A stretch of DNA of 32,076 nt, from positions 1 to 32,076 of the IMG/VR virus record IMGVR_UViG_3300029893_000045, one strand, 5' to 3'. The DNA is from a virus. Below the pieces are notes generated by a model. It was not told the origin of the DNA. It worked only from the letters and a program-made list of their open reading frames with translations, and searched no databases. Shown piece after piece: positions 7,987-32,076 of this stretch (its first letter is position 1; the number at the start of each line of letters is the position of its first letter). Made by a program: the position numbers and the translations under genes.

Positions 7987-7988
7987 GC

Positions 7989-8017: not shown

Positions 8018-8023
8018 ATCGCC

Positions 8024-11331: not shown

Positions 11332-11335
11332 GGTA

Positions 11336-11365
11336 TTGACAAACAATAGACGCTCGTAGTATGCT
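11336..11365 (+). promoter_or_regulatory. Promoter in front of the virion gene cluster
   Basis: TTGACA at 11336-11341, an 18-bp spacer, TATGCT at 11360-11365. It lies just after the large-terminase stop, and the -10 box ends seven bases before ATG 11373, so this transcript also appears nearly leaderless. It probably drives the portal-to-capsid genes. Confidence 0.6.
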
Positions 11366-11372
11366 TTCTTTG

Positions 11373-14164: not shown

Positions 14165-14285
14165 GGCGCAGTTGCGCTGGCTGGCCGCCGCCGAGGAACG
14201 CGGCGACGTAAAGCGAGGCACTTTTAAGAGATGGAGAAGGCACACCGGGAGCACGAAGCGGCTTCCCGCGCGCAAGGGCTGGTAG
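14148..14285 (+). CDS. Small basic MPVKSKAQ-type phage protein
   Basis: 45 residues beginning M-P-V-K-S-K-A-Q-L-R-W, a recurrent start among tiny phage proteins encoded close to portal and capsid genes, and ending in K-R-L-P-A-R-K-G-W. About one third of residues are Lys or Arg, so nucleic-acid contact is likely. The exact role in other phages is not established to my knowledge. It overlaps the preceding gene by 17 bp. Confidence 0.65.
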   Translation: MPVKSKAQLRWLAAAEERGDVKRGTFKRWRRHTGSTKRLPARKGW

Positions 14286-14428
14286 AGGCTCTGCATATCC
14301 TGGACAGGCGGTGGCCGTTCCGCTGGTGCCGGGACTACGATTTCGGGGACAACCCCCAAAAACCAAAGCCGGAAAACCCGGCGCAAGGAGAAAGTGATGA
14401 CCGGAAACGCGAGCGAGACGACAGGTAG
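14231..14428 (+). CDS. Hypothetical small charged protein
   Basis: 65 residues, overlapping the basic protein upstream and the scaffold downstream in a different frame. It fills an otherwise empty gap of about 110 bp. The middle has W-P-F-R-W-C-R-D-Y-D-F, and the end is a highly charged tail. A weak AAGAG precedes the ATG. It could be a chance frame; support is the gap it fills and the overlapping style of this genome. Confidence 0.45.
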   Translation: MEKAHREHEAASRAQGLVEALHILDRRWPFRWCRDYDFGDNPQKPKPENPAQGESDDRKRERDDR

Positions 14429-15392: not shown

Positions 15393-15421
15393 CCGAATCT
15401 TAGCAGACAGGAGTTACTACA

Positions 15422-16588
15422 ATGGCAAACAGACAGGTGGTGCAGACCAGCTCGAACCAGGGCACGGAAGGACGTGCGGTTCGCGCGGTCGCGCCGAAGA
15501 TACACGAACTGGAACCCGATAAGTACCCGCTTTGCGTCATCCTGACCAAAGCCGCCGGCCGCCTCATCAGCGCCGGCAATAAAAAGGTGGAATGGCTGGA
15601 GGACGAGCTGACCCCGCAGTTCGACGCCCTGGGCGCCGCCCTGACCGCCGACGCGACCTCGATGACCGTGGTGGACTACACCAAGTTCGTCAAGGGCATG
15701 CTGGTGCGCGTGGACAAGCAGGAAATCGTCCGCGTCAAGGCCACCCCTACCTCCACGACCGTGACCATAACGCGCGCCGTGGGCGAAACCGCCGCGCGGG
15801 CCGCCGTTAACAGCTCGCAGCTCCACATAATCGGCGTATCGGCCGAGGAAGGCGCCCCGCTGGCGTCCATCCTGGCGACGGTCAAGACCAACCCGTATAA
15901 CTACATGGACATCACCCGCACCCCGTTCGGCTGGACCGGCACGGCGCAGGAGTCCGACGTCTACGGGCAGGGCGACCGGGAATATGACCGGGCCAAGGCC
16001 ATCGTGGAGCACTGCCGCGACCTCGAAAAGAAGCTAATCCTCTCCGAGCGCTCCCTGACCGCCACCGGCGGCGCGGACAGCAAGGAGCACAGGACCATGC
16101 GCGGCGTTCATCACTGGATAACCACCAACGTCCAGGCCGAGAACGGCGAGCTGACCGAGGCCGAGTTCGACGAGTTCGTGCGGAAATCGTTCCGCTACGG
16201 CTCCAAGAAGAAACTGGGCCTGATGTCGGGGAAAATCCTCAACGTCATCAATGACTTCGCCAAGAACCGCATACAGCTCAAGCCGATGGACTCGAAATAC
16301 GGCCTCGCGCTCAAGAGCTACTTGACGGCTTTCGGCGAGCTCGAACTGGCCTACCACCCGCTGCTGGAGAACGACTCGCTGACCGACCTGACGGGCCTGG
16401 CCGGCACCGGCTACATCCTGGACGTGGCGAACCTCGCCATCCACCACATGCCGAACCGCTACATGGTTCACCGCATGGACGTGGGCACGCCCGGCGACGA
16501 CGCCAAGACCGAGGAGATGCTGTCGGAATGCACAATCAGCGTCGCCCTTGAGAAAGCGCACGGCAAGATAACCGGCGTCACGCAGTAA
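15422..16588 (+). CDS. Major capsid protein (DUF5309/SU10-like)
   Basis: 388 residues, preceded by AGGAG. The sequence shows the DUF5309 style: N-terminal strand region, Thr/Val-rich insert at about 75-135 (T-S-M-T-V-V, V-T-I-T-R-A-V-G), T-P-F-G-W-T-G-T-A, and the spine helix with D-V-Y-G-Q-G-D-R-E-Y-D-R-A-K. This family folds like HK97 coat and forms the icosahedral shell. It follows the scaffold and precedes a signal-peptide protein. No protease gene is seen, so the delta domain is probably the separate scaffold. Confidence 0.8.
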   Translation: MANRQVVQTSSNQGTEGRAVRAVAPKIHELEPDKYPLCVILTKAAGRLISAGNKKVEWLEDELTPQFDALGAALTADATSMTVVDYTKFVKGMLVRVDKQEIVRVKATPTSTTVTITRAVGETAARAAVNSSQLHIIGVSAEEGAPLASILATVKTNPYNYMDITRTPFGWTGTAQESDVYGQGDREYDRAKAIVEHCRDLEKKLILSERSLTATGGADSKEHRTMRGVHHWITTNVQAENGELTEAEFDEFVRKSFRYGSKKKLGLMSGKILNVINDFAKNRIQLKPMDSKYGLALKSYLTAFGELELAYHPLLENDSLTDLTGLAGTGYILDVANLAIHHMPNRYMVHRMDVGTPGDDAKTEEMLSECTISVALEKAHGKITGVTQ

Positions 16589-16600
16589 GGGCTTAAGCCC
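16589..16600. other. Dyad GGGCTTAAGCCC after the capsid gene
   Basis: A perfect 12-bp palindrome starting right after the capsid stop and followed at once by AAGGAG of the next gene. It can form only a 4-bp stem with a TTAA loop, so it is more likely a stability or processing element than a terminator. Confidence 0.3.
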
Positions 16601-16614
16601 AAGGAGATAAAGAC

Positions 16615-17397
16615 ATGATAAAGATGATAGCGGGCTTCGTCCTGGCGGCCCTGATGGCCGGGAACGCGTCGGCTCTTTCTTCGGAGAGCGCGCTCATAGC
16701 GGAGTATACGAAGAAGCACGTGGCCGCGATAAACGACTACAACGACGCCGGGCTGATAAAGCTGACTTATGTCGGCTCTGCCACCCAGGCCGTTGTCGGC
16801 GTTACCGCGACTGCGTTCACGACCGAGGCGCCTTTGGGCACGGCCGACCTGACGATAGACATATCGGCGGCGGCCTATGACACCATAGGCGAGCTCTGCG
16901 ACTACCTGGACGCGCAGGCCAATTACACCTGCGTGCTGACCGGCGGCAAACGCGACGACAGCTCCGGCCTGCTCAAAAACGTGACCGCTGCGGCGGCTAC
17001 CGACGCGAAAGCGGCCGGCGGCTATGAGGTCCTGATAGACACCGGCGGCGCTGTGGCGACCGACCCCTACATCCTGCGCCTGGGCATAACCCCGGCCACC
17101 GGGAAGCGGGTCGTGCTGAAATACTGCACCGGCAACATCAACGTCATAGACAGGCTGGCCGTTTACGGCAAGCTCGCCAAATACGACGGCATATCGGACG
17201 GCGTAACCCGCAACGATACGACCCTCGTCTACAGCGAGGTGACCGCCGACGACACCGACAAGACCATCGGCAACATCTACGACGGCTCCGGCTGGCTGGA
17301 GTTCGCGAAAGATGAGCACGTCGTCATCTCCAGCGTAGATGCCGATAATACCCAGGCCGCCGCCAACTTCATAAAGTGCGCCTGGTTCGAAAAGTAA
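16615..17397 (+). CDS. Secreted-type virion protein with signal peptide
   Basis: 260 residues; ATG 16615 has a clear AAGGAG. Residues 1-20 form a textbook Sec signal: Lys3, hydrophobic core I-A-G-F-V-L-A-A-L-M-A-G, and cleavage site N-A-S-A/L-S. The mature part is Thr/Ala/Asp-rich and strand-rich, with four Cys (95, 106, 171, 255), an even number that would allow two disulfides. It directly follows the major capsid gene, the usual place of decoration or head-fibre genes. A signal peptide on such a gene is very unusual. No family recognised. Confidence 0.7.
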   Translation: MIKMIAGFVLAALMAGNASALSSESALIAEYTKKHVAAINDYNDAGLIKLTYVGSATQAVVGVTATAFTTEAPLGTADLTIDISAAAYDTIGELCDYLDAQANYTCVLTGGKRDDSSGLLKNVTAAAATDAKAAGGYEVLIDTGGAVATDPYILRLGITPATGKRVVLKYCTGNINVIDRLAVYGKLAKYDGISDGVTRNDTTLVYSEVTADDTDKTIGNIYDGSGWLEFAKDEHVVISSVDADNTQAAANFIKCAWFEK

Positions 17398-17410
17398 GAG
17401 CAGCAGTCAA

Positions 17411-17433
17411 GGGGGCCGGCCAACCCGGCCCCC
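17411..17433 (+). terminator. Nine-bp GC hairpin after the secreted protein gene
   Basis: GGGGGCCGG (17411-17419), a 5-nt loop, CCGGCCCCC (17425-17433). TATGTTAAAA follows rather than T-run, so it is at best a partial terminator; it could stabilise the abundant capsid message upstream. Confidence 0.5.
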
Positions 17434-17456
17434 TATGTTAAAAGCAGGAGAAAAAA

Positions 17457-17810
17457 ATGATCAAGACCTACATAACCCCGAAGATGAAAGAGCCCGAGCT
17501 GGTGGTGCAGCCTGCCGGTAAAAAGGACCCCCAGGGGAACCGCATACCGCGCAAAACCATACAGTTCCGGCCCAACGGGGCCAGCGTGGGGCAGTACACG
17601 ACCTCCGATCCCAAGGAGCAGGAGTTCCTCGACAGCCACGAATACATGACCACCGGCGAGATGATGGTGATGGGCGCCGAGAGCGATCTGCCGGCCGCCG
17701 AGCCGACCGTCAAGACGCGCGTTGGCCCGCAGACCGCCGCGGAAGATACCCCGCCTACGCCGCCGGCAGCCAAAGCCGTGCCGGCCAAGGCCGCGCGGGT
17801 AAAGAAGTAA
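17457..17810 (+). CDS. Hypothetical virion-region protein
   Basis: 117 residues, ATG seven bases after AGGAG. Residues 1-75 look folded (strands around Y-I-T-P-K-M, T-I-Q-F-R-P-N-G); residues 76-117 are a Pro/Ala/Lys tail ending A-A-R-V-K-K. The arrangement is seen in small head-completion or linker proteins, but no family is recognised. Confidence 0.6.
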   Translation: MIKTYITPKMKEPELVVQPAGKKDPQGNRIPRKTIQFRPNGASVGQYTTSDPKEQEFLDSHEYMTTGEMMVMGAESDLPAAEPTVKTRVGPQTAAEDTPPTPPAAKAVPAKAARVKK

Positions 17811-17834
17811 AGCAGCCCCGGGAGGGTGATGGAT

Positions 17835-18548
17835 ATGGACCTGGACGTTTTTATCGCCAAGCTTAAACGCAAGACGCAGTTCGGCAATCCGTCAGTGGCC
17901 ACCGATCAGCAGGCGAAGGACGTCCTTGATTCAATAAACCAGAGCCTGCGCGTCATCACGCGCAATTGGTTATGGGACTGGCTCATGGACCCTATATCCA
18001 TCGCCCTCGTCGCGGGCACTACCGACTACACGCTGGACGCCGACATCAGCAAGATAATCAGCATAGACGCCGGCAACGGCAAGACGCTGGACAACATCAC
18101 CGTTTCCGAGTATCACCGCTACCGCAAGCCCGACACCACGTCCGGGGAGACGATCTACGGCGATCCCGGCTGGTACCTTTATATCGGACGCGACGCCACC
18201 GGGGCGCGCAAGATACGGATAGGCAACATCCCGACCTCATCCACGACGCTGACCGGCTTTGGTAAGTTGAAGCTCACGTCGTTCTCCGAGAGCGACCTGG
18301 GCACGGCCGCCGATTTCCTGCCGTTCCCTGATGAGGGGGAGGACGTGCTGGAGGCGTTCGTCCTGGCCGACATATACGCCTATCAGGGGAAGAAGGACCT
18401 TATTTTCCCGCAGAAACAGGAGGCCGAGAAAAAGCTGCTGCTGTGGCGTGGCGAGTCCACCACGGAGCCGTCATCTCGCGCGACCACCTCGTTGCCGGAT
18501 TACATCCGCAACAAGCGCGCCGACAGACGGGGCGGCCGCTATGTTTAA
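17835..18548 (+). CDS. Head-tail adaptor-like protein (P22 gp4 / T7 gp11 type)
   Basis: 237 residues from ATG 17835, nine bases after GGAGG; ATG 17829 or GTG 17826 would be too near the Shine-Dalgarno. The helical start (A-K-D-V-L-D-S-I-N-Q-S-L-R-V-I), W-L-W-D-W, a strand-rich middle, and a final helical part (A-F-V-L-A-D-I-Y-A-Y-Q-G-K-K-D) match adaptor proteins that sit under the portal of short-tailed phages. The gene overlaps the nozzle-like gene by 8 bp. Assigned by fold style and position. Confidence 0.6.
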   Translation: MDLDVFIAKLKRKTQFGNPSVATDQQAKDVLDSINQSLRVITRNWLWDWLMDPISIALVAGTTDYTLDADISKIISIDAGNGKTLDNITVSEYHRYRKPDTTSGETIYGDPGWYLYIGRDATGARKIRIGNIPTSSTTLTGFGKLKLTSFSESDLGTAADFLPFPDEGEDVLEAFVLADIYAYQGKKDLIFPQKQEAEKKLLLWRGESTTEPSSRATTSLPDYIRNKRADRRGGRYV

Positions 18549-21156
18549 GGCCGCCGCGGCCCTGCTGCTTGCCTTGCCGGGCCTCTCTTGCGCCGCCGAG
18601 CTCCATATATCGGGCTTCGGCGGCGTAAACAATTACGCCGACCCGATGTTCATCGCGGACACGGACGCCTCCGACGCCCGCAACGTCATCACCTACGAGG
18701 GCGACCTGCGCCCTGTCTATGGCAGCGTGCGCTTCAATACTGTGGCCGCCTCGTCCATTACCTACCTGGGAGAATACGTCAACAGCGACGGCCGCCGCAC
18801 CGTCTTTTCTAAATCGGGGCTGGGGCTTTATGCCACCAACCCCAACACCGGCGTCATGACGCTGCTCAAGGCTTTTGATTCCGAGCGCGAAATAGACGCG
18901 GTCCCGGCGTTCGGCGCTATGTACTTTGTGGACGGTAGCTCGGCCTGGTGGTCGGACGGCGTTAGCACCTACACTGCTACGAATATGTCGGCCTGCGATT
19001 ATGTCGAGTTCTATGCCAACCGCCTGGTCTGCGTGAGCGTGTCCACCGAGACGAGCCGGATGAACCTTTCGGCCTACAATTCCTCAACCACCTGGGCGAC
19101 CGGCTCCGGCGACGACGATGCTGCGGTCAGGTATTTCGCCAAGGATGATGGCTACCAGATAAACTGTGTCAAGGCGACGCCCTACGGCATATTCGTAGGC
19201 AAGGACCGGTCCTCTCATATTCTTAAAGGCGATAGCAATCCCACGTTCTACCAGTTCCCGCTTTCCGACACCATCGGCTGCTCCGACGATCGCTCTGTTC
19301 AGTTCGTTGACGGTGTCATCATGTGGCTGGGCAATAAGGGGAACGTCTACGGCTGGGCCGGTGACGGTCGCGTGGAGGACATGTCCGCGGAGATACGCGG
19401 CTGGACGAAGGACATCCGCAAATCGCAGTCACAGGAGGGCAATTGGACCGTGGCTTCGCAGGCCGGCTGGGAGCTTGGCGCTTATAGCGGCTGGGAAACG
19501 ACGGCAGATCCGTCCGTCTTAAAAGCGCGGTCCTACAACAGCGGCCTTTTGACCAGCGGTGCGACCTCGTATTTTCTGCCGACCATGTTTGCTAATTCTG
19601 GATTCGAGAACGGGACAAGCTCCGGCTGGACGCCCGCCTTTGGCGCTATCGAGTCCCAAAATCTGACTTGGTGTTCGGGCACGTCCTGCACGCCAACGCT
19701 TACCTCGGGAAGGACTTACTCTGCATTTACGTCGTGCTCCAGCAAGTGGATGGATTTGCCGCGGGCTAGGGTAGACGTTATAAACGCTTCCGATGACGCA
19801 GTCATTTTTTCCTACGAGCTATTTGCCGCCTGCGACTCACCATCGGTTGCTGTGCAGCAGAACATATCGTCACCGACCATATCCGGGTCCGGCGACATAA
19901 AAATAAGGATTTTCGACATAGACGGTTCGACCAGGACCTCGACCGCCTTTGACCGCAGCAACGGCGTTTTTCTGATGACAAAATCGGACTATACCGGCGT
20001 TCGGTACGACTCTATGGAGGGCAAGTCCGCTATTGAGACATCGGTGTCGCAGGTTTACGATACCGGCTTTGTAGCGCCCGATCTGTCGCTCTCGATATAT
20101 GCCTCCTATGGCAGCACCCTGACTTACTACGCCTCTGCCGATAGTTCGACGTGGGTATCAACGACCATTGCCATAGGCGGCAGCGTGCCGACGGATTATA
20201 AACTGCGGTACTTTAAGTTCAATATTTCCATGACGGCGTCCGGTGCCGGCGTGGTCTATTCGAGCTTTACCGGTATTACGTTGTCCATGCTGGACACCGC
20301 GACCTATTACTCGCCCGTCACTTTCACGTCGGTGGGAATATCCGACTGGAAGCAGTTCGTGGCGGCCTACACGTCCACGGCCACGACCCCCGTTTTCTCG
20401 GTGCGTTCGGGCACCTATGCCTTTGCCTCTGATGGCGCCGCGCCGGCCTGGACCGTTCAGTCCAACGGCGGCGAGATAACCATATCGACGGGCGCCTATG
20501 TTCAGTATGCCATAGACCCGAAAATAACGAGCTCGACGCAGGCCCTTGCCTTTCAGTCAACCTCTATCAACTACGTGGTCGGCGCGGTGTCACCGCGCGT
20601 GGCCTCACTGACCTGGGACGGTCATTACCTGCTGTCGGTGTCTACTAATTCAGAGACGACCAACCACCTGACGCTGATGTACCAGAAGAACAAGAAATGG
20701 ACGGCGCTCGAGGGGCAGAGCTATGGCGCCATGACCGTCTACAACAACCGCCCGCTGGCCGGTGACGGGACTTCGGGCTCCCGCCTTTGGTACTTGCTGG
20801 ACCAGGACGCAAAATCCTTTGACGGCGCGGCTATTAATTCGTGGTGGCAAACCAAGGATTACACGTTGGGCTCGGTCAACAATCATAAGGTCATAGACCG
20901 AATGTGGATAAACGCCGGCGGCAACGGCGTGGATGCGCTGGATATATCCTGGCAGGCCGACCGCGCCGGGACCTGGTACTCTACTTCGACCGCCCTGTCC
21001 GGGACCAGTTTTGTCATCCGCGAGGTGGACGGCCTGTTTGAAAACTACAATCTGGCGCGGCAGGCGCGCTTCAAGTTTGCCGCTGACGAGATCGACCGGG
21101 ATTTCCGGCTCAAAATGTTTTCACTTTACTATACCGTGAATCCTCTGATAAAATAG
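18541..21156 (+). CDS. Nozzle-like beta-propeller protein with signal peptide and CBM-like insert
   Basis: 871 residues from ATG 18541. Residues 1-19 are a Sec-type signal (Lys3, A-A-A-A-L-L-L-A-L-P-G-L, site S-C-A/A). The mature start, I-S-G-F-G-G-V-N-N-Y-A-D, then D-A-S-D-A-R-N-V, mirrors T7 gp12/P22 gp10-type nozzles (G-G-L-N-x-R-D, D-A-x-N-V). Strand-rich repeats follow, with W-x-G-x-x-G turns. Residues about 350-500 begin N-S-G-F-E-N-G-T-S-S-G-W, as jelly-roll carbohydrate-binding modules do, and are less GC-rich than the flanks. The mature chain has eight Cys. It is expected at the tail tip, gating DNA and contacting the host. Confidence 0.6.
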   Translation: MFKAAAALLLALPGLSCAAELHISGFGGVNNYADPMFIADTDASDARNVITYEGDLRPVYGSVRFNTVAASSITYLGEYVNSDGRRTVFSKSGLGLYATNPNTGVMTLLKAFDSEREIDAVPAFGAMYFVDGSSAWWSDGVSTYTATNMSACDYVEFYANRLVCVSVSTETSRMNLSAYNSSTTWATGSGDDDAAVRYFAKDDGYQINCVKATPYGIFVGKDRSSHILKGDSNPTFYQFPLSDTIGCSDDRSVQFVDGVIMWLGNKGNVYGWAGDGRVEDMSAEIRGWTKDIRKSQSQEGNWTVASQAGWELGAYSGWETTADPSVLKARSYNSGLLTSGATSYFLPTMFANSGFENGTSSGWTPAFGAIESQNLTWCSGTSCTPTLTSGRTYSAFTSCSSKWMDLPRARVDVINASDDAVIFSYELFAACDSPSVAVQQNISSPTISGSGDIKIRIFDIDGSTRTSTAFDRSNGVFLMTKSDYTGVRYDSMEGKSAIETSVSQVYDTGFVAPDLSLSIYASYGSTLTYYASADSSTWVSTTIAIGGSVPTDYKLRYFKFNISMTASGAGVVYSSFTGITLSMLDTATYYSPVTFTSVGISDWKQFVAAYTSTATTPVFSVRSGTYAFASDGAAPAWTVQSNGGEITISTGAYVQYAIDPKITSSTQALAFQSTSINYVVGAVSPRVASLTWDGHYLLSVSTNSETTNHLTLMYQKNKKWTALEGQSYGAMTVYNNRPLAGDGTSGSRLWYLLDQDAKSFDGAAINSWWQTKDYTLGSVNNHKVIDRMWINAGGNGVDALDISWQADRAGTWYSTSTALSGTSFVIREVDGLFENYNLARQARFKFAADEIDRDFRLKMFSLYYTVNPLIK

Positions 21157-21165
21157 GGGAGACCT

Positions 21166-21909
21166 ATGGCCATATACGATTACAACGACATCCGCAACGA
21201 CGACTGGTATAACCGGCTGGTCCGCGGCGTAAAGGAGCGCACCACGGCGTCCATCCGCAAGACGGGCTCCGATGTTGACGACCCTTATTGGCGGGCCAAG
21301 GAGCGCGAGCAGCTGGGCGACCTGTCCTCTGCTAGGGATTCCGCTTTCCGGCGCGCCTTTGCTGCGGCGCGTGAGCGTCAGGCGGCCATAGGCGCTTCCA
21401 TGCGAGAGCGAGAGGCGGCCCGGCAGCGCACGATTTCCGGCGCGTTGGCGGCGCAGTGGCGGCCCGATGTGGGCCTGGGCGTGCAGTCAGATGGCGGCGA
21501 GGCGCCGTCCGGGCTGGGCGCGGCTGCGCCGGAACCTATTCAGATGTCGCCGGCTCAGCCGCCGGAGGCATATCCCCGCCCGGCCGCCCCGGCTTTATAT
21601 GCGCGAGACCGCGGCGCAGCGCCCGGTGGCGGTGTTTACACGAACCGCGCCTGGTCCGCGGGGCAGGCTGCCGCCGGCGGCTACCGCCCGCCGGAGCCAC
21701 CGAAGCCGCCGGTGGTGGCCGGCTATAACCCGGACGTATTCAAGGACAAGGGCATGGAGGACCGGCAGGCGTACCTTGACCGGCTTATCCAGCAGACAGC
21801 CGAATCGCTTTACAGTCAGCGCCCCCGCGCCAAGTTCACGCCTGGCTATATGGAGGGCAGCCCGCGCGATTTCTACGCGCAGGCCACCAAGATAGTAATG
21901 GGGAGGTAG
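21166..21909 (+). CDS. Ala/Pro-rich virion-region protein
   Basis: 247 residues. The N-terminal 80 residues form charged helices (S-A-R-D-S-A-F-R-R-A-F-A-A-A-R-E-R-Q); the middle is a disordered Pro/Ala/Gly linker; the C-terminal 60 residues look folded (D-R-Q-A-Y-L-D-R-L-I-Q-Q-T). It is encoded between the nozzle-like protein and the giant protein, where internal or ejection proteins are found in podoviruses. Not recognised. Confidence 0.6.
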   Translation: MAIYDYNDIRNDDWYNRLVRGVKERTTASIRKTGSDVDDPYWRAKEREQLGDLSSARDSAFRRAFAAARERQAAIGASMREREAARQRTISGALAAQWRPDVGLGVQSDGGEAPSGLGAAAPEPIQMSPAQPPEAYPRPAAPALYARDRGAAPGGGVYTNRAWSAGQAAAGGYRPPEPPKPPVVAGYNPDVFKDKGMEDRQAYLDRLIQQTAESLYSQRPRAKFTPGYMEGSPRDFYAQATKIVMGR

Positions 21910-21910
21910 C

Positions 21911-22489
21911 ATGGCAAAGTTCGAGAGTTGGTTTCCCTCCGGTCAGTTCGACCCGCGCGGTGGCGGCGAGGCGGGCCTGCCCGATTTCCGCAAGCGCCGG
22001 GCCGAAGAGGCCGAGTTCTACGCCCGCTACGGCATGTCGCCGGCCGAGCTTAAAGAGGCCGAACGACTGCGCGGAGAGTACCCTGGCACCCTGCCGGCCG
22101 GGCAACGCCCTAAAGGCGCGACCCCGCCCGCTAATATCACCAGTCAGCAGCAGGGCGTGCTTAATCGCTACGGAGATTTCCGTAGTCTGCTGGACACGGC
22201 GCTGGGCGCCGGTGGTCGCCGCGCGCCTGCCGGCGGGGCTGACGAGGACGAGCGCAAGCGCCTGGAGGCCATGATGGGCGCCTACAAGGGCAAGGTCCTC
22301 TCCCCGCAGGAGGAAGCCGAAATTCAGGCTATTAAGAAGCGCTGGTATCAGCTTTCAAACATACCTATGCCAGAGGCCGGCGGTGAGGCCGAGCGCGACT
22401 GGTCTATATGGAAACCCACCACCTGGCCGGTGTGGGGCGGTAAAAAGACGCCGCCCGGTTCTGCCGGCGGGCTGGAGGGCCTCGAGTAA
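21911..22489 (+). CDS. Hypothetical protein preceding the giant protein
   Basis: 192 residues, one base after the previous stop; its own TAA overlaps the ATG of the giant gene. Charged helix at 15-60, Gly/Pro-rich linkers, a short helical part (E-E-A-E-I-Q-A-I-K-K-R-W-Y-Q-L) and a Trp-rich C-terminus. Like the preceding gene it appears to be a small, flexible virion or ejection protein. No family recognised. Confidence 0.55.
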   Translation: MAKFESWFPSGQFDPRGGGEAGLPDFRKRRAEEAEFYARYGMSPAELKEAERLRGEYPGTLPAGQRPKGATPPANITSQQQGVLNRYGDFRSLLDTALGAGGRRAPAGGADEDERKRLEAMMGAYKGKVLSPQEEAEIQAIKKRWYQLSNIPMPEAGGEAERDWSIWKPTTWPVWGGKKTPPGSAGGLEGLE

Positions 22490-25400
22490 TGGCTGACACT
22501 AGGGCGTATCTCGACTACATTACCAAGAAGCGGCAGAAGCGTGAGCGTATAGAGAACGTGGATTTCTCTAAAATGCCCGCTGGCGTTGACGTTATGGCCG
22601 TGGCCGAAGAGCTGGGCCGCGACCTGCCGGATTCCTACCGCAACGAGATAATGTCCCGCGCCACCAAGCGCGGGCAAATAAAGGCCCTGGACTATAATGT
22701 CGCCCTGCCGCGCCCTGCGGTTCAGTATGCGGAGCCCGGCACTATGCCGCAATGGCCGCCTACTGCGGCCCCCACGCCGGGCCGCCCGGATGTGCCGGCC
22801 ATAGGCATGGCGCCGTCCCTGCCCACCCCCACCCCCGCAGAAATAAGCGCCGGCCGCAAGACCGTCAAGGAGTTCGGTGTGGATCTGCCGAAAGGACTTG
22901 GCAAGGCCGCCGCGGGCGGCTTGACGTCCGTGGTGTCAGGCGGCGTGGAGGGCTTCGGCAATATCGCCGGGGCGCTCGGCGCACTGGACGTGGAGGCCGA
23001 CAGCAAGACCGTTTCCGATTTCGTCAACGCTTTCTCGCAGCGCCATCTACAGAACGAGGAGAAAGACATCCTCTACGATATAGCCTCCGGCCTGGGCTCA
23101 ACCCTGCCCTTTATGGGAATCGGACGGGCGGTGGCCGGTGGCGTGCGCGTGGCCGGCGCCCTTGCCAAGACGCAGAAGGGGCTGGACCTGGCGGCCAAGT
23201 TGGGCACGGTCCTGGGCGTGTCCTCCATAGCCGTCACCAACGCTATGGTGGAGGGCGGCGCGGCGGCGCAGGAGCTGCGCTATGAGGGCAAGAGCCGCAA
23301 GACGCAGGACGACGCTTTCTGGCGGGCTTTCTTCCTGAACGTGCCGCTGACGGCGGTCCTTAACCGCTGGATGATAGGCGACAAGGCCGTAAAGAATCGG
23401 CTGGCCGCTTTCTTGCAGGGCGGCAGGTCAGAGGCCGCCGAGGAAACCTTACAGAATTTCATCAGCAAACTCTCGCAAGGCAAGCCGGTAGATTTAGGCG
23501 AGGCCCTTTACGAGGGGGGAATAGGCGCTATAGTGGGCGGCGGCATGGCTACTGTTGCTACCCCTGTCCAGGCGCCGGCGCCCGCCCCTCTACCCGGCCT
23601 CCCGCTTTCCCCTAATCTTGACGAGGCCACCAAGGCGCGCGCCGGCCAGATGGCGCAGACCGACCCAGTCGCCGCCATGAAGCTGGTCGTCCCGGCCTCC
23701 GAGTGGCAGGCCATTGACCGCATGGCCGGCGAGATAGCCGAGGCCGCCGAAGCGGACGCCTCTGTGCCCGCCGCGGAGAAGCGCATGGCGGTGCAGGCGG
23801 CCCTGACCGGCGTGTTGCAGAATAGCCTGGCGCCTGCCGCCCCGGCCGTGACCGGCGCGGAAGCCGAGGGCGTGGCGCCCGGTATGCCAGCCCCGGCGGT
23901 CCCGGTTGACCCGCAGGTCAATTTCATGCGGACGCAGGTGGGCGTGTTGCGCATGGTGTCGGAGAAGATGGGCCTCGACAATAAGCAGATTTCCGACCTG
24001 GTGCTGGATAAGGCCCGGGACGGTGTTACGCTGCGGCAGATCGTGCAGAAGGGCATAGCCGAGGGCAAGACCCCGGAGCAGATGGCCGATGAATACGGCG
24101 CTTTCCTTGAGGGCATACAGCGCACGGCCGCCGCGCAGGCGCAGGCCGCCCCGGCCCCTACCCCCTTACCCGAGGCCGAAAAGCCCGCCACGGCCCCCAC
24201 GGCGGCCCCGGAAGCGGCCCCCGAAGCGGTTGAGGCGGCTCCCGCCGGCCGCTGGTCCGATATAGCCGACGCCAAGACGGCGGCCCCCGGCATGGCCGTG
24301 GCCGCCCTGGACATGACGGACGAGGGCGCCGGCGCGGTCATCCTTAAGACCGCCGATAACCGCTTTGTGGTGCGCTCCGAGTTCGCTGACGTGCAGAGCG
24401 AGGACCCTGATGGCTTCTTCCCCAGCGTGGAGGCCGCCAAGGCGGCCATAGAGGCCGCGGTCCCTACCCCCGGCGTTGCGCCCGCCGAAATGGCGCCGGA
24501 GGCCGCCCTGCCGGTTATAGAGGCCGCCCCCGGCCGCCCGGAGGGCCGTCCCGATCTGCCGGAGGCCGCCTTGGAATACGAGGCCCAGCGCGAGGAAGCG
24601 CGGGCCGCCAACCAGCCGGTCTACGAGCCGGAGGTCGAGACCCCCGATTTCGAGACTGTCGTGCCCACGCCGGAAGCCGGCCATCCGGCCGCCCTTACCT
24701 ACGAGGCCGCCAAGGGGCGCTTTAAGAACCTGACCCCGGAGCAGCACAAGGCCCTAGTTCGCGGCCGCCTGGCGGCCGGGCAGGTGGTGCCGGAGGAGGT
24801 CATGGCGGCCTACCCCGACTTGGAGGCTGAATCCCGGGCACAGGCCGAGGAAGCCATGCGCCGGGAGGAAGGCCCCGCCGCGCGCCCGCTGCTGGACCTT
24901 ATCGTAAGCCGCGGCTATATCAATCGCGCCAACTACGAGAAGCATTGGGCCGGCGAGCTGCCGCGCGACGATATGCGCTTTTACATCCGCAAAAACGGCA
25001 AGGCGACCGTGTCCCAGCTTGCCGAGGCCGCCGCGGAGGCGGGGATTATACCGGAGGCCAGCGAGAACGCGCTGTTCGAGGCCGTAGGTAAAGAACTGCG
25101 GGGGAGGGCGGTAATAGCCAAGGAGGCGCCCGCTTCTTTCCTGGCCGAGCCCGCCGCCCCTGTTTTCTACTCCAAGTTGCAGGCCACTATCGCGGAGAAG
25201 ATGTCCGGCCCTATGTCGGCCGACCAGCTTCGCGCCCTGGTTAAGAACGCAGCCATCAAGCAGGAGGAGCTCGACTGGTACGACCTGGACGGCTTCCTTG
25301 AAAAGAACCCGAAGCCGAGCAAGGCCGACGTGCTGGATTACCTGGCCGCCAACGAGCTCAAAATAACGGAGATTGTAAAGGGCGAGGCGGTCGGCGGCAA

Positions 25401-28400
25401 GATGTCCCGGCAGGAGGCACTGTCGCGCATAAAGCCGGCTTTCGAGGCCAAGGGCTACACCGTGGCGGTGGATGAGGCTGACCCCGACAGCCCGATCTAT
25501 TTCTCCAAGGGCGAGGAGGACATAGAATTTGCCGACCTGCCGGAGGACCTTAAGGCCGCCGCGTTACAGTACGAGAACCGCGTGCTGGCGCCCGGCGAGG
25601 TGCGCAGGAAGTCCGACACCAGGTATGGGGCGCACGTCCTGCCCGGCGGCGAGAATTACCGCGAGGTTCTTTTCACGTTGCCGGTCGAGCGCGTCAGCGC
25701 CGTTCCGGCAGATGTGCAGGCCCTCATAGATGAGGACAGCGGTGAATCCCTTGAGGCGGCCGATAACCTGGCGCGCGAAAAATACGGCATGCGCGTGGAA
25801 ATAGACCCGGACACGGACCTTGCCTACGTGGTGCCGATGAAAGGGGAAAGGCTTTATCAGGGTCCGCATTGGAGCGAGGACAATGTTCTGGCGCACCTAC
25901 GGCTCAACGATCGCACCGTAGACGGGAAGCGCACGCTATTCATCGAAGAGGTGCAAAGCGATTGGCATCAGGCCGGTAGGGAGAAGGGCTACAAGGCAGA
26001 CGTCAAGAAGCGTTACCCGGAGATAATGAAGAAAATAGAGGCGCTCAATAAAAAAGAGGCCGCTATGGACTTCAATAATTGGAGCCCCGAAAAAGAGCAA
26101 GAGCATAGCGCTTTAAAGAACGAAAGGGACGACCTTTATGACCTTATCAGGAGCCAAAAGCGCGACGCTGTCGCAGACGCCCCTTTTAAAAAAACATGGC
26201 ACGAGTTCGTAATGAAGCGCGCCCTGCGCATGGCCGTGGACGAGGGCTACGACGTGGTGGCGTGGACTACGGGGGCGCAGCAGGCAGACAGGTATAATTT
26301 AGGCAAGCACGTAGATAGTCTGGAATGGACGCAGGTAAGCGGAAGGTCTTTCGACATACGCGGTATAAAAAATGGCAAACAGGTGATAGTGAGGCAGTTT
26401 GTAAGGGAGCCAGATTTGCCCGGGCTGGTCGGAAAAGAAGTATCTGCGAAAATAATAGCGGCGCGCGATGTCTACAAAAATCCGACGGGCAAGCCCTATG
26501 ACGCGACGCCCAAAGGGGAGTTAAGTGGAGCCGACCTGCAGGTCGGCGGTCAGGGCATGGCCGGCTTTTACGACAAAATGCTGCCCGATTTTGTCAACAA
26601 GTTCACCAAGAAGTGGGGCGGGAAGGTAGGACAGACACAAATGGACATATCCGGGGGCAAACCGCTTACCGGCTACGAGCCGGATTTTGCCCCGGATGGA
26701 GTAGCGCAGATTCATACCCTCGCCATCACGCCCGAAATGCGCCGCGCCGCCATGTCCGGCTTTCCGCTGTTCGAGCCCGGCCACAAGTACACGCAGGACG
26801 AACTATTTCCTACCGAGCTGGAAGCCTTTACCGAACCGCCCGCGAAAGCCGAGGCGAGAGTCATAGACGACATAAAAAAGGTTAAGCCGGTAGGTCAATT
26901 TCACGATCTGCGCCTGGACAAGGCCGCCAAGCGCATGGAAAAGGACTTTAAGGAGCGCGGTGTTACGCGCTTTGTCGGCCAGAAGATAGAAACGCTGCAG
27001 GACGTGGCCGAGATAGCGGCTGTTTACCGCCATCCGTTTATCGAGCACGCACAATTCATCTTCATAAAAGACGGGAAGTTTGTGGGTTCGCAGCATTTTA
27101 GCAGCGGGCTTATAGACGAGATACGGATTACGGAGCAGGAAGTGATGGACGCCGTGGCTAAAGGCATGACGGAGTTCGGCGCCGACGGTTTCTATATGTC
27201 GCACAACCATCCCTCCGGCAACCCAAGTCCTAGCGATACTGATGTAAAAACAGCCGGCAAATTGGGCCGCAATTTCGGTGATTCTTTCAAGGGTTCGCTG
27301 GTGACGGACCATAGCCACTTTGTGGCCATAGACACAAAAGGCGAGGCCATCCTGCACGCTTTCAAGGAAGAGAAGCCGCGCTTCCGCAAGGGCGAGCTGG
27401 AGCCCGCCGCGGTCGGCGCTTTCTTCCGAGGTCAGCCCGTAGTTGATAAGCCCGGGAGCGCGGCCGATTTTTCGCGCGGCGTGCTTGATGGGAGGCAGAT
27501 GGGCATCATGTTCCTGGACGTGCGCCTGGCGGTGCTGTCTTTTGACCATGTAGACCCGTCCGGCGTGGATGTGAATAAATACATTGAAAAAATGCGGCGC
27601 AAATACGGGGCCGCCACTACTATTATGGTGACCGGTGATGAGGGTTTTTCCAAGATGAAAAAGACCGGCGTCATAGGCGGCGTGACGCAGGACCTTGTTG
27701 TTCTTTCCGCAGACGGCTCCTATAAGAGCGTCCGGCTTGGCAATATACCCGGCTGGCGCTATTCTAAAATGCAGACCCAGGTTTCGAGCCTGGTCGGTGA
27801 GGCCGCCCCGCAGTATGGCGCTCCCGATCGCAAGGCGCTGCGCCGTATGCGCCCTGGCGCCAAGTTGACCGCCCGCGGCCGCATAAACGACCCGTCTATC
27901 AAGGGCGGCATACCGCGCGGTGCATCCGTGACCGTGGTGGACGTGGACCCGTCTACCGGGCAGATGGTGGTGGACTATGAGGGCGCCCTGGCCTTTGCCG
28001 GCCCGGAAATGTTCCGCGAGACCTACCAGAAGCCGGAGCCGGTGCGCCCGGTACCTGGAATCCCGGTAAAGCGCGCCGTGGAGCGCGCGACCGGCGTCAA
28101 GCCGGTGGAGCGCCCGGTGGAAACCACGGAGATGAGGCTGCTCAACGCCAAGTTGGCTACCGAGGAAAAGGCCGCCCGGCTGGCCGCCAAGGCCGTAAAG
28201 GCCGAGCTACTGGAAGATATGCGCGAGGCCAAGAGGGGCGCCGAATCGTTGCGCAAGTCCGCGGTGGAATACATCGGCAAGAACGTGCCGAAAGCCTTGC
28301 AGTATAAATTCGTGCAAATGGCGGCCAACGCCAAGACCGTGGTGGGGCTTGCCAAGGTGGTGGTGCGCGCCGACGCCGAGGCCGACAAGGCGTATCGCCG

Positions 28401-30852
28401 CGGCCTGGTGGACGACATCAAAAAGGTTTCCGACCGCGCTCTATCCAGCATGAGGGTGGACGTGGAATACCGCGAGGCCGTCAAGGCCCTGCTGACCGAG
28501 TTTGACGTGGTCAAGCGGCGGCCCGACACCATCCTTAAACTGAAAGCCTTGCAGGAATACGTCAACAAGGCCGAGGCCAGCGGCAAGGACATCTTCCTGC
28601 CGGACGAAATGCGCAAACGCCTGGAAATTCTGACGCTGCGGCCGCTGGACGAGATGTCCAACGCAGAGCTGGAGAATGCCCTGCGCGACCTGCACATCAT
28701 CGAGGCGGTCGGCCGGGAGGGCCAGGCGCAGAAAGAGGCGGCTTGGGAGATGGAAAAGGGCGAGTGGCGCCGGTCGCTTGCCGCGGCAGCCAAGCCGCTG
28801 ACTAACTTGTCGGCCGAGCTCTCCAAGGCGGCCCAGCGGTGGGCCTGGGCGCAGGAGGTCTACTGGTCGCTGGCGCCTATGAACGTCCTGTTCGACCGCC
28901 TGGACGGCGGCAAGGGCGATTACAGCGGCCCCCATTCGCGCATGAAGGCTATCCTGGACGCCGATTTCTTCCGCTTCCTGGACCTTAAGCGCCGGCACAT
29001 CGGCCCGGTCCTTGACCTGGTGGATAAGCACGGCATGGGCGAGGGCGAGCTTACCCGGATAGGTATTTACGCTTTCAAGGTGCAGAAGGACGGCGTTGAC
29101 CGCGTGCTGTCCACCATGCCCGAGCTCACGCGTGAGTTCGTCGAGCGCCTGACGCTGACCGGCCCGGAGATGGAGGTTTACCGGGCTATGCGCGAGAATA
29201 TGGAGGCCCTCTACCCGGAGATGAAGCGCCTGATGGGCCGGCTTTATAACCGGGAGGTCGGCAAGGTGGAGAATTACTTCTCCATGATGACCGATTGGGA
29301 TAAGCTGATGGACATGGAGGTCCTTGAGCGCCTGGCGGCCTCGCCGGACGAGTTCACCGGTATGCGCAAGAACATCACGGCCGGCTTTTCTAAAGAGCGC
29401 AAGCCGCGCGCTAAGACGCCCATCAGGATGAATGCCGGGCAGGTGTTCATCCAGCATATGACGGACCTGGCCTACTTTGTGGCTATGCAGGAGAACATTA
29501 AAAAGTTCTCCGAGATAGTCAGCAGCGAGGAGTATGTCGAGGCCGCCGGCCCCACCGGCGCCAAAATAACGCGCGGCTGGCTGGATCTGCTGGCGCGGCA
29601 GGGCAAGGCCGAGGGCTCCAAGCGCATAGCCATGCTGGACACGTTGCGCGTCAATATCGGTTCTGCGGTGCTGGGCTTTAAGCTGTCCTCGTTCCTGATT
29701 CAGACCACGTCCTTTATGGACGGGGCGGCCCTTACCGGCGGCGCGAACATGACGCAGGCGCTCTCCTACGTCCTGTCGGACAAGCAGGCCCGGTCTTGGC
29801 TGCTGGCGAACTTTCCGAAGCTGCGCGAGCGCGTGGGTGATGACGTGTCGTTCCGCGACCTGGCGCAGACCGAGTGGCTGAAAAAGATTCAGACTATGGG
29901 ATATATCCCGCTGAAATGGCTGGACGGGATAATGGCTACGACTACCACCCTGGCCGGCTATATGCAGCGCGCCAAGGAGAACGGCGTGGAGCTCGACTTC
30001 ACCGCGGCGCCGGATAAGGTGGCGGCCAAGCACGCGAGCTGGGCGCTCGACCGGACGCAGGCCAGCCCGTTCTTCATAGACGTGGGCGTGGCGTTCAATT
30101 CGCCCAAGTTCCTGTTTGGCAATGTGTCGGTCAATAAGGCGCTGTTGCAGTTCAAGCAGTTCGTAATAAACCGCTGGTTCTTCATGTCCTACGATGTGCC
30201 GCGGCTGGAATCCACGGCCGACAAGGCCAGCGCTTACGGCTGGCTGCTGGCCGCCGGTCTGGCCGAGATGGGCGTGCGCGGCGCCTCGCGCGGGATCGTG
30301 CTGTCGGCCCTGGGCGCTGCCGGCTTGGGGATAGCCTCTGCGGTCAAGGGTGCCGACGACGATGATGATATGTGGCGCAATTACGCGCTGACCCTGTTGG
30401 GCATGGTGCCGTTCCTGGACGCGCCGATGTCGGCCATGCGGTATGGCTCTTTCCCTATCCCGGTCCTGGACACGGCCGCCAAGGCGTTCACCAATTCCGG
30501 GGACGCGATTAATGCGCAGAACGGCTACCGGCGTGTGACCGGGCTGCGCAAGGCCCTGACCGCTTTCGCTTCGTTGGCGGGCATACCCGGTACCGCGCAG
30601 GTCGGTCAAATACTGGCCTGGTCGTATAACCCCAAGACGCTGACTTTTCCCTACAGTGCGGAATACTGGGAGCTAGTCGAGCTGGGGCACACACGCACGG
30701 CCGGGGAGACGGCCCGCCTGCGCCGCCTGGACGCAGCCAAGGGGCGGTTTTCAGCCTACGCCAAGGTCTACCGCGACGCCATGCAGAAGGGGGACATAGA
30801 GGCCGCGGCCGGGTCCGCGCGCCGGGCGGCTGACGCGTTGGAGGGGCTGTGA
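22489..30852 (+). CDS. Giant polyvalent virion protein with JAMM/RadC-like domain
   Basis: 2787 residues in one frame. About 135-360: Gly/Ala-rich amphipathic or membrane-active segments. Pro/Ala linkers to about 850. About 890-960: a polyvalent-protein module (F-Y-S-K-L). About 1060-1410: another, with F-I-E-E-V-Q-S-D-W-H. About 1460-1640: a metalloprotease-like domain with H1572-N-H1574-x7-S1582-x2-D1585, the JAMM pattern of RadC. About 1640-1770: a mixed domain; about 1780-1845: SH3-like; 1870-2110: helical; about 2110-2787: the conserved C-terminal region of large polyvalent proteins, with a hydrophobic segment near 2600. Such proteins are packed in the head and ejected; domains may counter defence or remodel DNA and membrane. 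Confidence 0.8.
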   Translation: MADTRAYLDYITKKRQKRERIENVDFSKMPAGVDVMAVAEELGRDLPDSYRNEIMSRATKRGQIKALDYNVALPRPAVQYAEPGTMPQWPPTAAPTPGRPDVPAIGMAPSLPTPTPAEISAGRKTVKEFGVDLPKGLGKAAAGGLTSVVSGGVEGFGNIAGALGALDVEADSKTVSDFVNAFSQRHLQNEEKDILYDIASGLGSTLPFMGIGRAVAGGVRVAGALAKTQKGLDLAAKLGTVLGVSSIAVTNAMVEGGAAAQELRYEGKSRKTQDDAFWRAFFLNVPLTAVLNRWMIGDKAVKNRLAAFLQGGRSEAAEETLQNFISKLSQGKPVDLGEALYEGGIGAIVGGGMATVATPVQAPAPAPLPGLPLSPNLDEATKARAGQMAQTDPVAAMKLVVPASEWQAIDRMAGEIAEAAEADASVPAAEKRMAVQAALTGVLQNSLAPAAPAVTGAEAEGVAPGMPAPAVPVDPQVNFMRTQVGVLRMVSEKMGLDNKQISDLVLDKARDGVTLRQIVQKGIAEGKTPEQMADEYGAFLEGIQRTAAAQAQAAPAPTPLPEAEKPATAPTAAPEAAPEAVEAAPAGRWSDIADAKTAAPGMAVAALDMTDEGAGAVILKTADNRFVVRSEFADVQSEDPDGFFPSVEAAKAAIEAAVPTPGVAPAEMAPEAALPVIEAAPGRPEGRPDLPEAALEYEAQREEARAANQPVYEPEVETPDFETVVPTPEAGHPAALTYEAAKGRFKNLTPEQHKALVRGRLAAGQVVPEEVMAAYPDLEAESRAQAEEAMRREEGPAARPLLDLIVSRGYINRANYEKHWAGELPRDDMRFYIRKNGKATVSQLAEAAAEAGIIPEASENALFEAVGKELRGRAVIAKEAPASFLAEPAAPVFYSKLQATIAEKMSGPMSADQLRALVKNAAIKQEELDWYDLDGFLEKNPKPSKADVLDYLAANELKITEIVKGEAVGGKMSRQEALSRIKPAFEAKGYTVAVDEADPDSPIYFSKGEEDIEFADLPEDLKAAALQYENRVLAPGEVRRKSDTRYGAHVLPGGENYREVLFTLPVERVSAVPADVQALIDEDSGESLEAADNLAREKYGMRVEIDPDTDLAYVVPMKGERLYQGPHWSEDNVLAHLRLNDRTVDGKRTLFIEEVQSDWHQAGREKGYKADVKKRYPEIMKKIEALNKKEAAMDFNNWSPEKEQEHSALKNERDDLYDLIRSQKRDAVADAPFKKTWHEFVMKRALRMAVDEGYDVVAWTTGAQQADRYNLGKHVDSLEWTQVSGRSFDIRGIKNGKQVIVRQFVREPDLPGLVGKEVSAKIIAARDVYKNPTGKPYDATPKGELSGADLQVGGQGMAGFYDKMLPDFVNKFTKKWGGKVGQTQMDISGGKPLTGYEPDFAPDGVAQIHTLAITPEMRRAAMSGFPLFEPGHKYTQDELFPTELEAFTEPPAKAEARVIDDIKKVKPVGQFHDLRLDKAAKRMEKDFKERGVTRFVGQKIETLQDVAEIAAVYRHPFIEHAQFIFIKDGKFVGSQHFSSGLIDEIRITEQEVMDAVAKGMTEFGADGFYMSHNHPSGNPSPSDTDVKTAGKLGRNFGDSFKGSLVTDHSHFVAIDTKGEAILHAFKEEKPRFRKGELEPAAVGAFFRGQPVVDKPGSAADFSRGVLDGRQMGIMFLDVRLAVLSFDHVDPSGVDVNKYIEKMRRKYGAATTIMVTGDEGFSKMKKTGVIGGVTQDLVVLSADGSYKSVRLGNIPGWRYSKMQTQVSSLVGEAAPQYGAPDRKALRRMRPGAKLTARGRINDPSIKGGIPRGASVTVVDVDPSTGQMVVDYEGALAFAGPEMFRETYQKPEPVRPVPGIPVKRAVERATGVKPVERPVETTEMRLLNAKLATEEKAARLAAKAVKAELLEDMREAKRGAESLRKSAVEYIGKNVPKALQYKFVQMAANAKTVVGLAKVVVRADAEADKAYRRGLVDDIKKVSDRALSSMRVDVEYREAVKALLTEFDVVKRRPDTILKLKALQEYVNKAEASGKDIFLPDEMRKRLEILTLRPLDEMSNAELENALRDLHIIEAVGREGQAQKEAAWEMEKGEWRRSLAAAAKPLTNLSAELSKAAQRWAWAQEVYWSLAPMNVLFDRLDGGKGDYSGPHSRMKAILDADFFRFLDLKRRHIGPVLDLVDKHGMGEGELTRIGIYAFKVQKDGVDRVLSTMPELTREFVERLTLTGPEMEVYRAMRENMEALYPEMKRLMGRLYNREVGKVENYFSMMTDWDKLMDMEVLERLAASPDEFTGMRKNITAGFSKERKPRAKTPIRMNAGQVFIQHMTDLAYFVAMQENIKKFSEIVSSEEYVEAAGPTGAKITRGWLDLLARQGKAEGSKRIAMLDTLRVNIGSAVLGFKLSSFLIQTTSFMDGAALTGGANMTQALSYVLSDKQARSWLLANFPKLRERVGDDVSFRDLAQTEWLKKIQTMGYIPLKWLDGIMATTTTLAGYMQRAKENGVELDFTAAPDKVAAKHASWALDRTQASPFFIDVGVAFNSPKFLFGNVSVNKALLQFKQFVINRWFFMSYDVPRLESTADKASAYGWLLAAGLAEMGVRGASRGIVLSALGAAGLGIASAVKGADDDDDMWRNYALTLLGMVPFLDAPMSAMRYGSFPIPVLDTAAKAFTNSGDAINAQNGYRRVTGLRKALTAFASLAGIPGTAQVGQILAWSYNPKTLTFPYSAEYWELVELGHTRTAGETARLRRLDAAKGRFSAYAKVYRDAMQKGDIEAAAGSARRAADALEGL

Positions 30853-31430
30853 GGGCGCTCCTGGCGGTCCTGCTCCTGCTGCCGGCCTATGCCGGCGCGC
30901 AGGTGTTTCCCTATGAGGTTAAGGATCCGGCCACCAACCGGAATCTGTATTTCCTTTGGGAGAACATTTTAAAGCTCAAAAACATCACCGGGACCGGCGG
31001 CTCCTTTATCTTCACATCTTCCGAGTTCGGCGGTGATGTGTCCGGCACCTACGACAACCTGGTCGTGATAGACAATAGCCACCTACACAACATGACGTCG
31101 CTACAGGGCGTTTTGTCGAGCACTTCACCGGTCCCGATTGCGCTTGTAGATTTGTCCACAGTTACTACTGCATTGGATGGGAAATTATCTCTATCCGGCG
31201 GGACGGTGACGGGCGGCCTTACGAGCACGTCGTGGGCTAATTTCACGTCCAGTGTAACGGCTTCCGCTTTCTACGGTGACGGGTCAAATCTTACCGGGAT
31301 TTCGTCTGTTGGAGGGGCCGGGGTTTTGCAGCTTGATGATGACGGCAATCTGCTTCCTGACGATATTGTGACGTTGGACTCCTATCTTGAAGTCGTCGGC
31401 AATGATATAATCCCTTTGGAGATACCATGA
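30849..31430 (+). CDS. Fibre-type protein with signal peptide
   Basis: 193 residues from GTG 30849, which overlaps the giant gene stop (GTGA). Residues 1-17 are a Sec signal (Arg2, A-L-L-A-V-L-L-L-L-P-A-Y, site A-G-A/Q). The mature part has fibre features: T-G-T-G-G-S-F-I, D-L-S-T-V-T-T-A-L-D-G-K-L, S-G-G-T-V-T-G-G-L, and G-D-G-S-N-L-T-G-I, all recurrent in tail fibres and in endosialidase-chaperone proteins. It ends with L-D-D-D-G-N-L-L-P-D. It is a short fibre or fibre base, followed at an ATGA overlap by a related protein. Confidence 0.65.
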   Translation: MRALLAVLLLLPAYAGAQVFPYEVKDPATNRNLYFLWENILKLKNITGTGGSFIFTSSEFGGDVSGTYDNLVVIDNSHLHNMTSLQGVLSSTSPVPIALVDLSTVTTALDGKLSLSGGTVTGGLTSTSWANFTSSVTASAFYGDGSNLTGISSVGGAGVLQLDDDGNLLPDDIVTLDSYLEVVGNDIIPLEIP

Positions 31431-32017
31431 TAAAAATACTGCTGACTGTTTTTCTTTTCGCGGGAAACGCCGACGCCGCCACCCGCAATTTCATACCTCG
31501 CAGGACCGGCGAAGGGTATATCGGCCTGTCTACGCGCACCTGGGCGGGAGTGTATGCTGACCAGTTTTGGGGCTCCGGCGCGGGCCTGACCTCCCTCACC
31601 GCTTCGGAACTGACGGGCACGGTGCCGACCGGCAGCGTTGATCTGTCCACCGTGACAACGGCTCTGGCCGGGAAGGTCGCCAAAGCCGGCGACACGATGA
31701 CGGGCAACCTAGCGCTCCCCAACTTGACGGCGACCTACGGCGTATCTGCGGCCACGGCGGTTATCACTTCGTCTATGACGGCGGGGTACGTCCTTGGTGA
31801 CGGCAAGGGGCTGACGGGCGTTATCCATTCTACGGCTACGGGGACTTATGGGCATTCCATAACGGGGAACGCCGGGACTGTCACCAATGGCGTGTATACG
31901 ACCGGGTCCTATGCGAACCCCGCCTGGATAACGTCCCTTGCGACATCGAAGATAGACCTGTCCACGGTGACGGCCAACCACGTCCTCAAAGCTGGCGATA
32001 CCATGACGGGCAATCTG
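31149..32017 (+). repeat. Three fibre modules DLSTVT...TGNL across two genes
   Basis: Related coding units at 31149-31220 (first fibre gene), 31640-31711 and 31955-32017 (second fibre gene) each encode D-L-S-T-V-T, a short variable part and G-G/D-T-V/M-T-G-G/N-L. The nucleotide sequences have diverged, especially the first. They suggest that the two fibre genes arose by duplication. Confidence 0.6.
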
Positions 32018-32076
32018 ACCCTTAACAGCGGCTCGAATACGCGACACGTCTATGGGTACATAGACTCAACGCAGAG
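31427..32076 (+). CDS. Tail fibre protein with signal peptide, 3' end outside window
   Basis: The frame is open from ATG 31427 to the window edge (216 codons). Residues 1-17 are a Sec signal (Lys3, I-L-L-T-V-F-L-F-A-G, site A-D-A/A). The next residues T-W-A-G-V-Y-A-D-Q-F-W are typical of receptor-binding fibres, followed by two modules D-L-S-T-V-T plus G-D-T-M-T-G-N-L (at 31640-31711 and 31955-32017) and G-D-G-K-G-L-T-G-V. T-M-T-G-N-L is a familiar repeat of phage tail fibres. The C-terminus, probably the host-binding or chaperone part, is missing. Confidence 0.75.
   Translation, partial: MIKILLTVFLFAGNADAATRNFIPRRTGEGYIGLSTRTWAGVYADQFWGSGAGLTSLTASELTGTVPTGSVDLSTVTTALAGKVAKAGDTMTGNLALPNLTATYGVSAATAVITSSMTAGYVLGDGKGLTGVIHSTATGTYGHSITGNAGTVTNGVYTTGSYANPAWITSLATSKIDLSTVTANHVLKAGDTMTGNLTLNSGSNTRHVYGYIDSTQ

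Follow-up and report, generated by a model that had tools for sequence, protein, structure and literature searches.

The assembly of tailed phages is taught as a process that takes place entirely in the cytoplasm. In the filamentous phages (Inoviridae), the coat proteins pIII and pVIII are made with Sec signals and are assembled from outside the cytoplasm. Among tailed phages, the surface proteins Lom and Bor of lambda have signal peptides. Tailed-phage genes with signal peptides also include those of the SP-endolysins (PMC8951688). The phages described here differ from Inoviridae in being tailed, with terminase, portal, scaffold, capsid and lysis enzyme. They differ also from the latter cases: SP-endolysins, Lom and Bor are not virion parts, whereas the signal-bearing proteins described here correspond to the nozzle, adaptor and fibres. 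In the open-licence literature, where absence is no proof, no report was found of Sec signals on the adaptor, nozzle or fibres of a tailed phage.

The likeness is closest to Escherichia phage SU10 (Kuravirus) and related short-tailed phages, in the capsid and adaptor families, in the order of capsid, small head gene, adaptor and tail genes, and in ejection proteins, which in SU10 are located inside the head (PMC9509320). However, all 14 SU10 virion-region proteins tested lack a signal peptide. The marine podoviruses of Roseobacter (CRP-2, CRP-603) and Pelagibacter (HTVC033P) have a homologous nozzle domain including the IGC motif, but their nozzles have neither the signal nor an equivalent of Cys209. 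The present phages are of known kinds; export of the outer shell would be what is new.

Predicted signal peptides in the window

The window, that is, the whole 32,076-base virus record IMGVR_UViG_3300029893_000045, has the gene layout of a tailed phage (Table 1). It contains an SU10-like short-tailed phage module with an SU10-type capsid and adaptor (PF17236 and PF24175), followed by a nozzle recognized by homology. The capsid, adaptor, portal and terminase matches are those of tailed phages and not of a filamentous phage (Inoviridae). AlphaFold2 gave no usable model of the head-adjacent protein (pLDDT 37) or of the nozzle (pLDDT 27), and no phage protein was matched when PDB sequences were searched with a nozzle profile.

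Table 1. Late-region features of the window, with predicted signal peptides
Feature	Position	Strand	Signal peptide and basis of assignment
Terminase	starts 9820		hit in window
Portal	starts 11713		hit in window
Scaffold	starts 14394		by position
Major capsid protein	15422..16588	+	without signal peptide; Pfam SU10_MCP PF17236, E 1.4e-45
Head-adjacent protein (260 aa)	16615..17397	+	predicted signal peptide 16615-16674; position of SU10 Ig-like gene
Small protein (117 aa)	17457..17810	+	without signal peptide
Head-tail adaptor	17826..18548	+	without signal peptide; Pfam SU10_adaptor PF24175, E 1.1e-10
Tail nozzle	18541..21156	+	predicted signal peptide 18541-18594, preceding nozzle domain; homology to nozzle/stabilization proteins
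Two small ejection-type proteins	21166-21909, 21911-22489	+	without signal peptide or Cys; role suggested by position
Ejection/internal-type protein (2787 aa)	22489..30852	+	without signal peptide or Cys; role suggested by position
Short fibre protein, DLSTVTTAL repeat	30849..31430	+	predicted signal peptide 30849-30899; C-terminus resembles c298 fibre 1
Fibre protein, truncated by contig end	31427..32076	+	predicted signal peptide 31427-31477; start of the mature part homologous to that of c298 fibre 2

The first-pass annotation had described Sec-type signals on four virion-type products of this region, and the N-termini are as it described. Cleavage is predicted between MIKMIAGFVLAALMAGNASA and LSS in the head-adjacent protein, where the peptide LSSESALIAEYTK begins at the predicted site, between MFKAAAALLLALPGLSCA and AEL in the nozzle, between MRALLAVLLLLPAYAGA and QVF in the short fibre, and between MIKILLTVFLFAGNADA and ATR in the truncated fibre. 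The starts were scored with a rule-based Sec scorer (not SignalP), which looks for a positive n-region, an uncharged hydrophobic stretch and small residues at -3 and -1; in calibration it accepted 9 of 10 classical E. coli signals. These Sec/signal peptidase I features were found by rule in all four proteins, with scores of 12.8-15.7 against 13.4-16.6 for the classical E. coli signals. Among the sense-strand late genes of the window only these four pass; two antisense ORFs pass too.

The controls were 123 virion-region proteins with annotated starts from 23 other phages, including SU10, homologous nozzles and homologous fibres. None reached the threshold, one lying just under it. With 4 of 12 late genes in the window against 0 of 123 controls, Fisher's test gives 3.7e-5. 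The pooled comparison of five focal phages (17/57 against 0/123, 5e-10) is descriptive only, because the phages are not independent and two prophage loci, L014 and L138, were picked partly for their fibres. Seven signal-like cases, with no recognized nozzle or adaptor among them, were seen in a cruder set of 442 ORFs called in other phage and prophage loci. It should be mentioned that an annotated OmpA-family protein in the late region of Roseobacter phage CRP-810 (L004, 7721-8476) has a borderline signal score.

The Shine-Dalgarno sequence is good at 16615, 30849 and 31427, and weak at 18541. The starts at 18541, 30849 and 31427 all overlap the stop of the gene before, which suggests translational coupling; the overlap of the nozzle ATG with the adaptor stop is 8 nt and is also present in the close relative L002. 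It had been argued that no internal start with a ribosome site could remove the signals, and this holds: the in-frame starts present within codons 9-70 all lack a Shine-Dalgarno-like motif. A Cys near the cleavage site is found only in the nozzle (C17). A lipoprotein (signal peptidase II) reading of this protein was rejected, since Tyr occupies the equivalent position in L002 and the signal thus has no conserved lipobox Cys. The argument from even Cys counts fared less well. The counts of 4 and 8 are correct, but even parity is not general (three Cys in the adaptor of a relative and five in one head-adjacent protein), and this weak argument was set aside. The four Cys of the head-adjacent protein are conserved in L002. 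In the favoured reading the four N-termini would be functional Sec signal peptides.

Signals and nozzle cysteines in related phages

The only close relative of the window found was L002 (IMGVR_UViG_3300001605_003585), whose capsid and terminase are 84-85% identical to those of the window. It retains both signals that it covers, MKKLIMGFILAALTAGNVFA for the head-adjacent protein and MSKALTALLLFLPAFSYA for the nozzle. Identity between the window and L002 is 61-65% in the signals and 76-88% in the mature parts. The h-regions of L002 are still hydrophobic, with zero charges introduced. Such fast drift with kept character is typical of cleaved signals. When equally many residues were replaced in simulation, only 11-33% of the altered versions of these two signals still passed, which is modest support.

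A far more divergent podovirus, c298 (IMGVR_UViG_3300023296_000998; 37-kb contig, 35% GC), was located via the motif common to the fibres. Its late gene order is that of the window. Signals are predicted on two head-adjacent proteins (167 and 142 aa), on the adaptor and nozzle and on the two fibres; its terminase, portal, scaffold, capsid and three ejection-type proteins have none. This distribution suggests that the signals mark the outside, post-packaging parts. Judged from the SU10 virion (PMC9509320), they are restricted to outer virion proteins added after packaging and are missing from those with a part in packaging or a place inside the head, the signal-less adaptor of the window being an exception. 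The c298 nozzle signal, MRLIILCLLLTPSFLKA before Q, failed the strict rule owing to a Lys in the c-region and passed a looser one; one head-adjacent protein has a weak cleavage region. This contig (L062) also encodes GroEL and a GroES-like protein (11520-13136 and 7411-7722, respectively).

In the fibres, nozzle and adaptor, homology picks up right at the predicted cleavage site. The PF24175 match of the c298 adaptor starts from residue 20, directly past the signal (E 3.7e-18), and the c298 and window nozzles match by BLASTP at 6e-13. The mature part of fibre 2 starts with QTRNIVPRGTSEGYIGLSTRTWAGMYAD in c298 and with ATRNFIPRRTGEGYIGLSTRTWAGVYAD in the window, and the fibre motif immediately after the signal is TRN.xPR.T.EGYIGLSTRTWAG. 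More contigs of the c298 group, part of them belonging to a clade with 83% terminase identity, retain the head-adjacent, adaptor and nozzle signals that they cover. Between the c298 clades, the codon changes in the adaptor signal are five synonymous and zero nonsynonymous.

The window nozzle aligns with nozzle/stabilization proteins of CRP-2, CRP-603, HTVC033P, MaAM05 and others. The homologues from Roseobacter, Pelagibacter, Microcystis and Manatee Spring phages begin right at the nozzle domain without an extension; only the nozzles of the window, L002 and c298 have the extra N-terminal signal. Cys247 of the IGC motif is present in most aligned homologues, signal-less ones included, whereas Cys209 is confined to the three signal-bearing nozzles. 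This distribution fits, without proving, a candidate Cys209-Cys247 disulfide that would form after export.

Probable host phylum and recurrence across tail types

The host phylum of the window phage, as inferred from the fibre motifs, is probably Elusimicrobiota. When 84,980 species genomes were searched with the fibre motif, five loci matched, of which three were titled Elusimicrobia and two were from untitled bacteria. Related fibre domains were found in 35 of 295 Elusimicrobiota genomes, several in large proteins with their own signals. The c298 GroEL is 71% identical to that of one Elusimicrobiota genome, against at most 57% for the best-ranked phage GroELs listed. A nucleotide search with positions 6000-25900 of the window for CRISPR spacers and prophage relatives gave only short, mostly low-complexity matches, none convincing. 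Many large signal-bearing chromosomal proteins of Elusimicrobiota with phage-fibre-type repeats were observed (L115, L121-L125, L128, L129, L131, L140, L141 and L145); their signals often precede ..YQGRL or FQGRL.

Wider viral scans with capsid, nozzle and fibre motifs matched only L002, the c298 group and G299 (IMGVR_UViG_3300045051_000584). The last is T7-like; its gp17-type anchor lacks a signal, and the three genes after it are signal-bearing, the final one encoding a 1280-aa fibre. A terminase scan added a few more distant relatives, whose recognized tail genes are without such signals. In L014, a siphovirus-type prophage locus of a metagenome-assembled genome titled only 'bacterium', a tape measure gene is accompanied by a 701-aa signal-bearing fibre. 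Two Mu-like prophages in two Elusimicrobiota genomes (L138 and L171) each have a signal-less anchor and then a homologous signal-bearing fibre, and the baseplate locus L174 has a signal-less tail-fibre-type protein and then an 800-aa signal-bearing protein. A signal-less tail or anchor protein is thus directly upstream of the signal-bearing fibre in L138, L171, L174 and G299.

Among seven Baseplate_J contexts read in Elusimicrobiota, the fibres were signal-bearing in three and not in four. The nozzle and adaptor of the SU10-capsid prophages of Elusimicrobiota have no signals, and the Mu-like sibling L170 has a 523-aa signal-less fibre that is similar at its start to the anchors of L138 and L171. 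On these grounds it was rejected that such signals are common to all Elusimicrobiota phages. Since the predicted signals occur in unrelated phages across tail types, yet other Elusimicrobiota prophages lack them, the trait is recurrent rather than universal. The genes of L170 (11800-13371), L138 (12738-15670) and L171 look as if a fibre gene had been split.

Proposed assembly in two compartments and rival explanations

The signals persist in relatives and recur on the adaptor, nozzle and fibres of other phages with the same probable host phylum, which supports and extends the original proposal of export for part of the virion. In the model that we slightly favour, the outer proteins of the virion are exported to the periplasm, where they mature, and are attached at lysis to heads made in the cytoplasm. 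The head-adjacent protein, nozzle and fibres, which are outer and added after DNA packaging, would be made as precursors; the Sec machinery of the host would take them through the inner membrane, and signal peptidase would cleave them. Folding would follow in the periplasm, where disulfides might form, for example Cys209-Cys247 in the nozzle, while heads with portal, adaptor and ejection proteins would be filled with DNA in the cytoplasm. Once lysis opens the inner membrane, the two pools would meet, and tail and fibres would attach. Holin-type lysis that mixes both compartments seems plausible, as no signal is present on the c298 endolysin, an Amidase_2 protein. Of these steps, export is the one with the best support, which comes from the sequence; cleavage, disulfides and incorporation after export, with joining at lysis, would be steps that we infer. 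Assembly outside the cytoplasm is consistent with the identity of the signal-bearing genes, and the model is in keeping with fibres that are divided between an anchor with no signal and a distal part that is exported. Against it, the adaptor is signal-less in the window and signal-bearing in c298, which means that the division between the compartments is not fixed, and an exported adaptor raises the question of how the packed head is closed. Furthermore, many Elusimicrobiota prophages, including those with SU10 capsids and one Mu-like sibling, manage without signals. A broader version, which we hold at a little under even, is that a compartment-split assembly with oxidative periplasmic maturation arose or spread independently in podo-, sipho- and myovirus types of Elusimicrobiota tailed phages. 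DNA-filled heads would be cytoplasmic, and adaptor or nozzle, head-adjacent proteins and fibres would pass through Sec and be attached only at lysis.

The exported fibres might instead act off the particle, coating the infected cell or lysogen and blocking receptors or superinfecting phage in the manner of a surface protein encoded by a phage, with virion copies in the minority or absent. The prophages L014, L138 and L171 carry such fibres, related secreted proteins are common in Elusimicrobiota chromosomes, and the separate signal-less protein ahead of the exported fibre would suit this role. The signals on head-adjacent proteins and on nozzle and adaptor, which have known places within the tail, would be left unexplained, and we consider this explanation rather unlikely. 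Hydrophobic helices alone would yield an equal pattern if the N-termini were left uncleaved, either to tether tail parts to the inner membrane for assembly there or to stay in the virion as membrane-contacting helices, and the weak cleavage region in one c298 head-adjacent protein would agree with this. However, cleaved signals are a better fit to the small-x-small motifs at the right distance, to the homology that restarts at the cleavage site in unrelated proteins and to a signal that drifts faster than the mature chain between the window and L002; retention of the N-termini is judged unlikely.

An origin from host secreted proteins, which the first-pass annotation had offered as an alternative, can be kept for part of the fibre domain, common to secreted proteins of Elusimicrobiota, and not for the nozzle and adaptor, which belong to phage tail families with otherwise signal-less members. 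For this reason, and because the signals stay functional-looking despite divergence, the view that they are relics without a role for the phage seems improbable. Wrong starts or chance hydrophobic N-termini might be suspected from the weak Shine-Dalgarno sequence at the nozzle and the purely rule-based scorer. The zero count among the controls, the starts and overlaps conserved in relatives and the lack of internal starts with a Shine-Dalgarno motif make such an artefact very hard to sustain.

If the favoured split assembly were shown, it would count as a new way of building a phage particle. It would provide a second assembly compartment and a route to disulfide-stabilized tails, and the fibres would be kept from the heads, or on the cell surface, until lysis. 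The recurrent signals concern phages of a largely uncultivated phylum. As this reading predicts which proteins have trimmed N-termini in viral metaproteomes, it is directly testable.

Three further genes should be mentioned. The L171 fibre (10546-14661, minus strand; 1371 aa, signal-bearing) has a long collagen-like G-x-T repeat. In the Elusimicrobiota prophage L081, a 142-aa signal-bearing gene (2280-2708) adjoins the scaffold-type and capsid genes on their upstream side. In the window, positions 8024-9355 encode a 443-aa fusion of a ParB-like protein and a DNA methyltransferase (phrog_498, E 7e-140).
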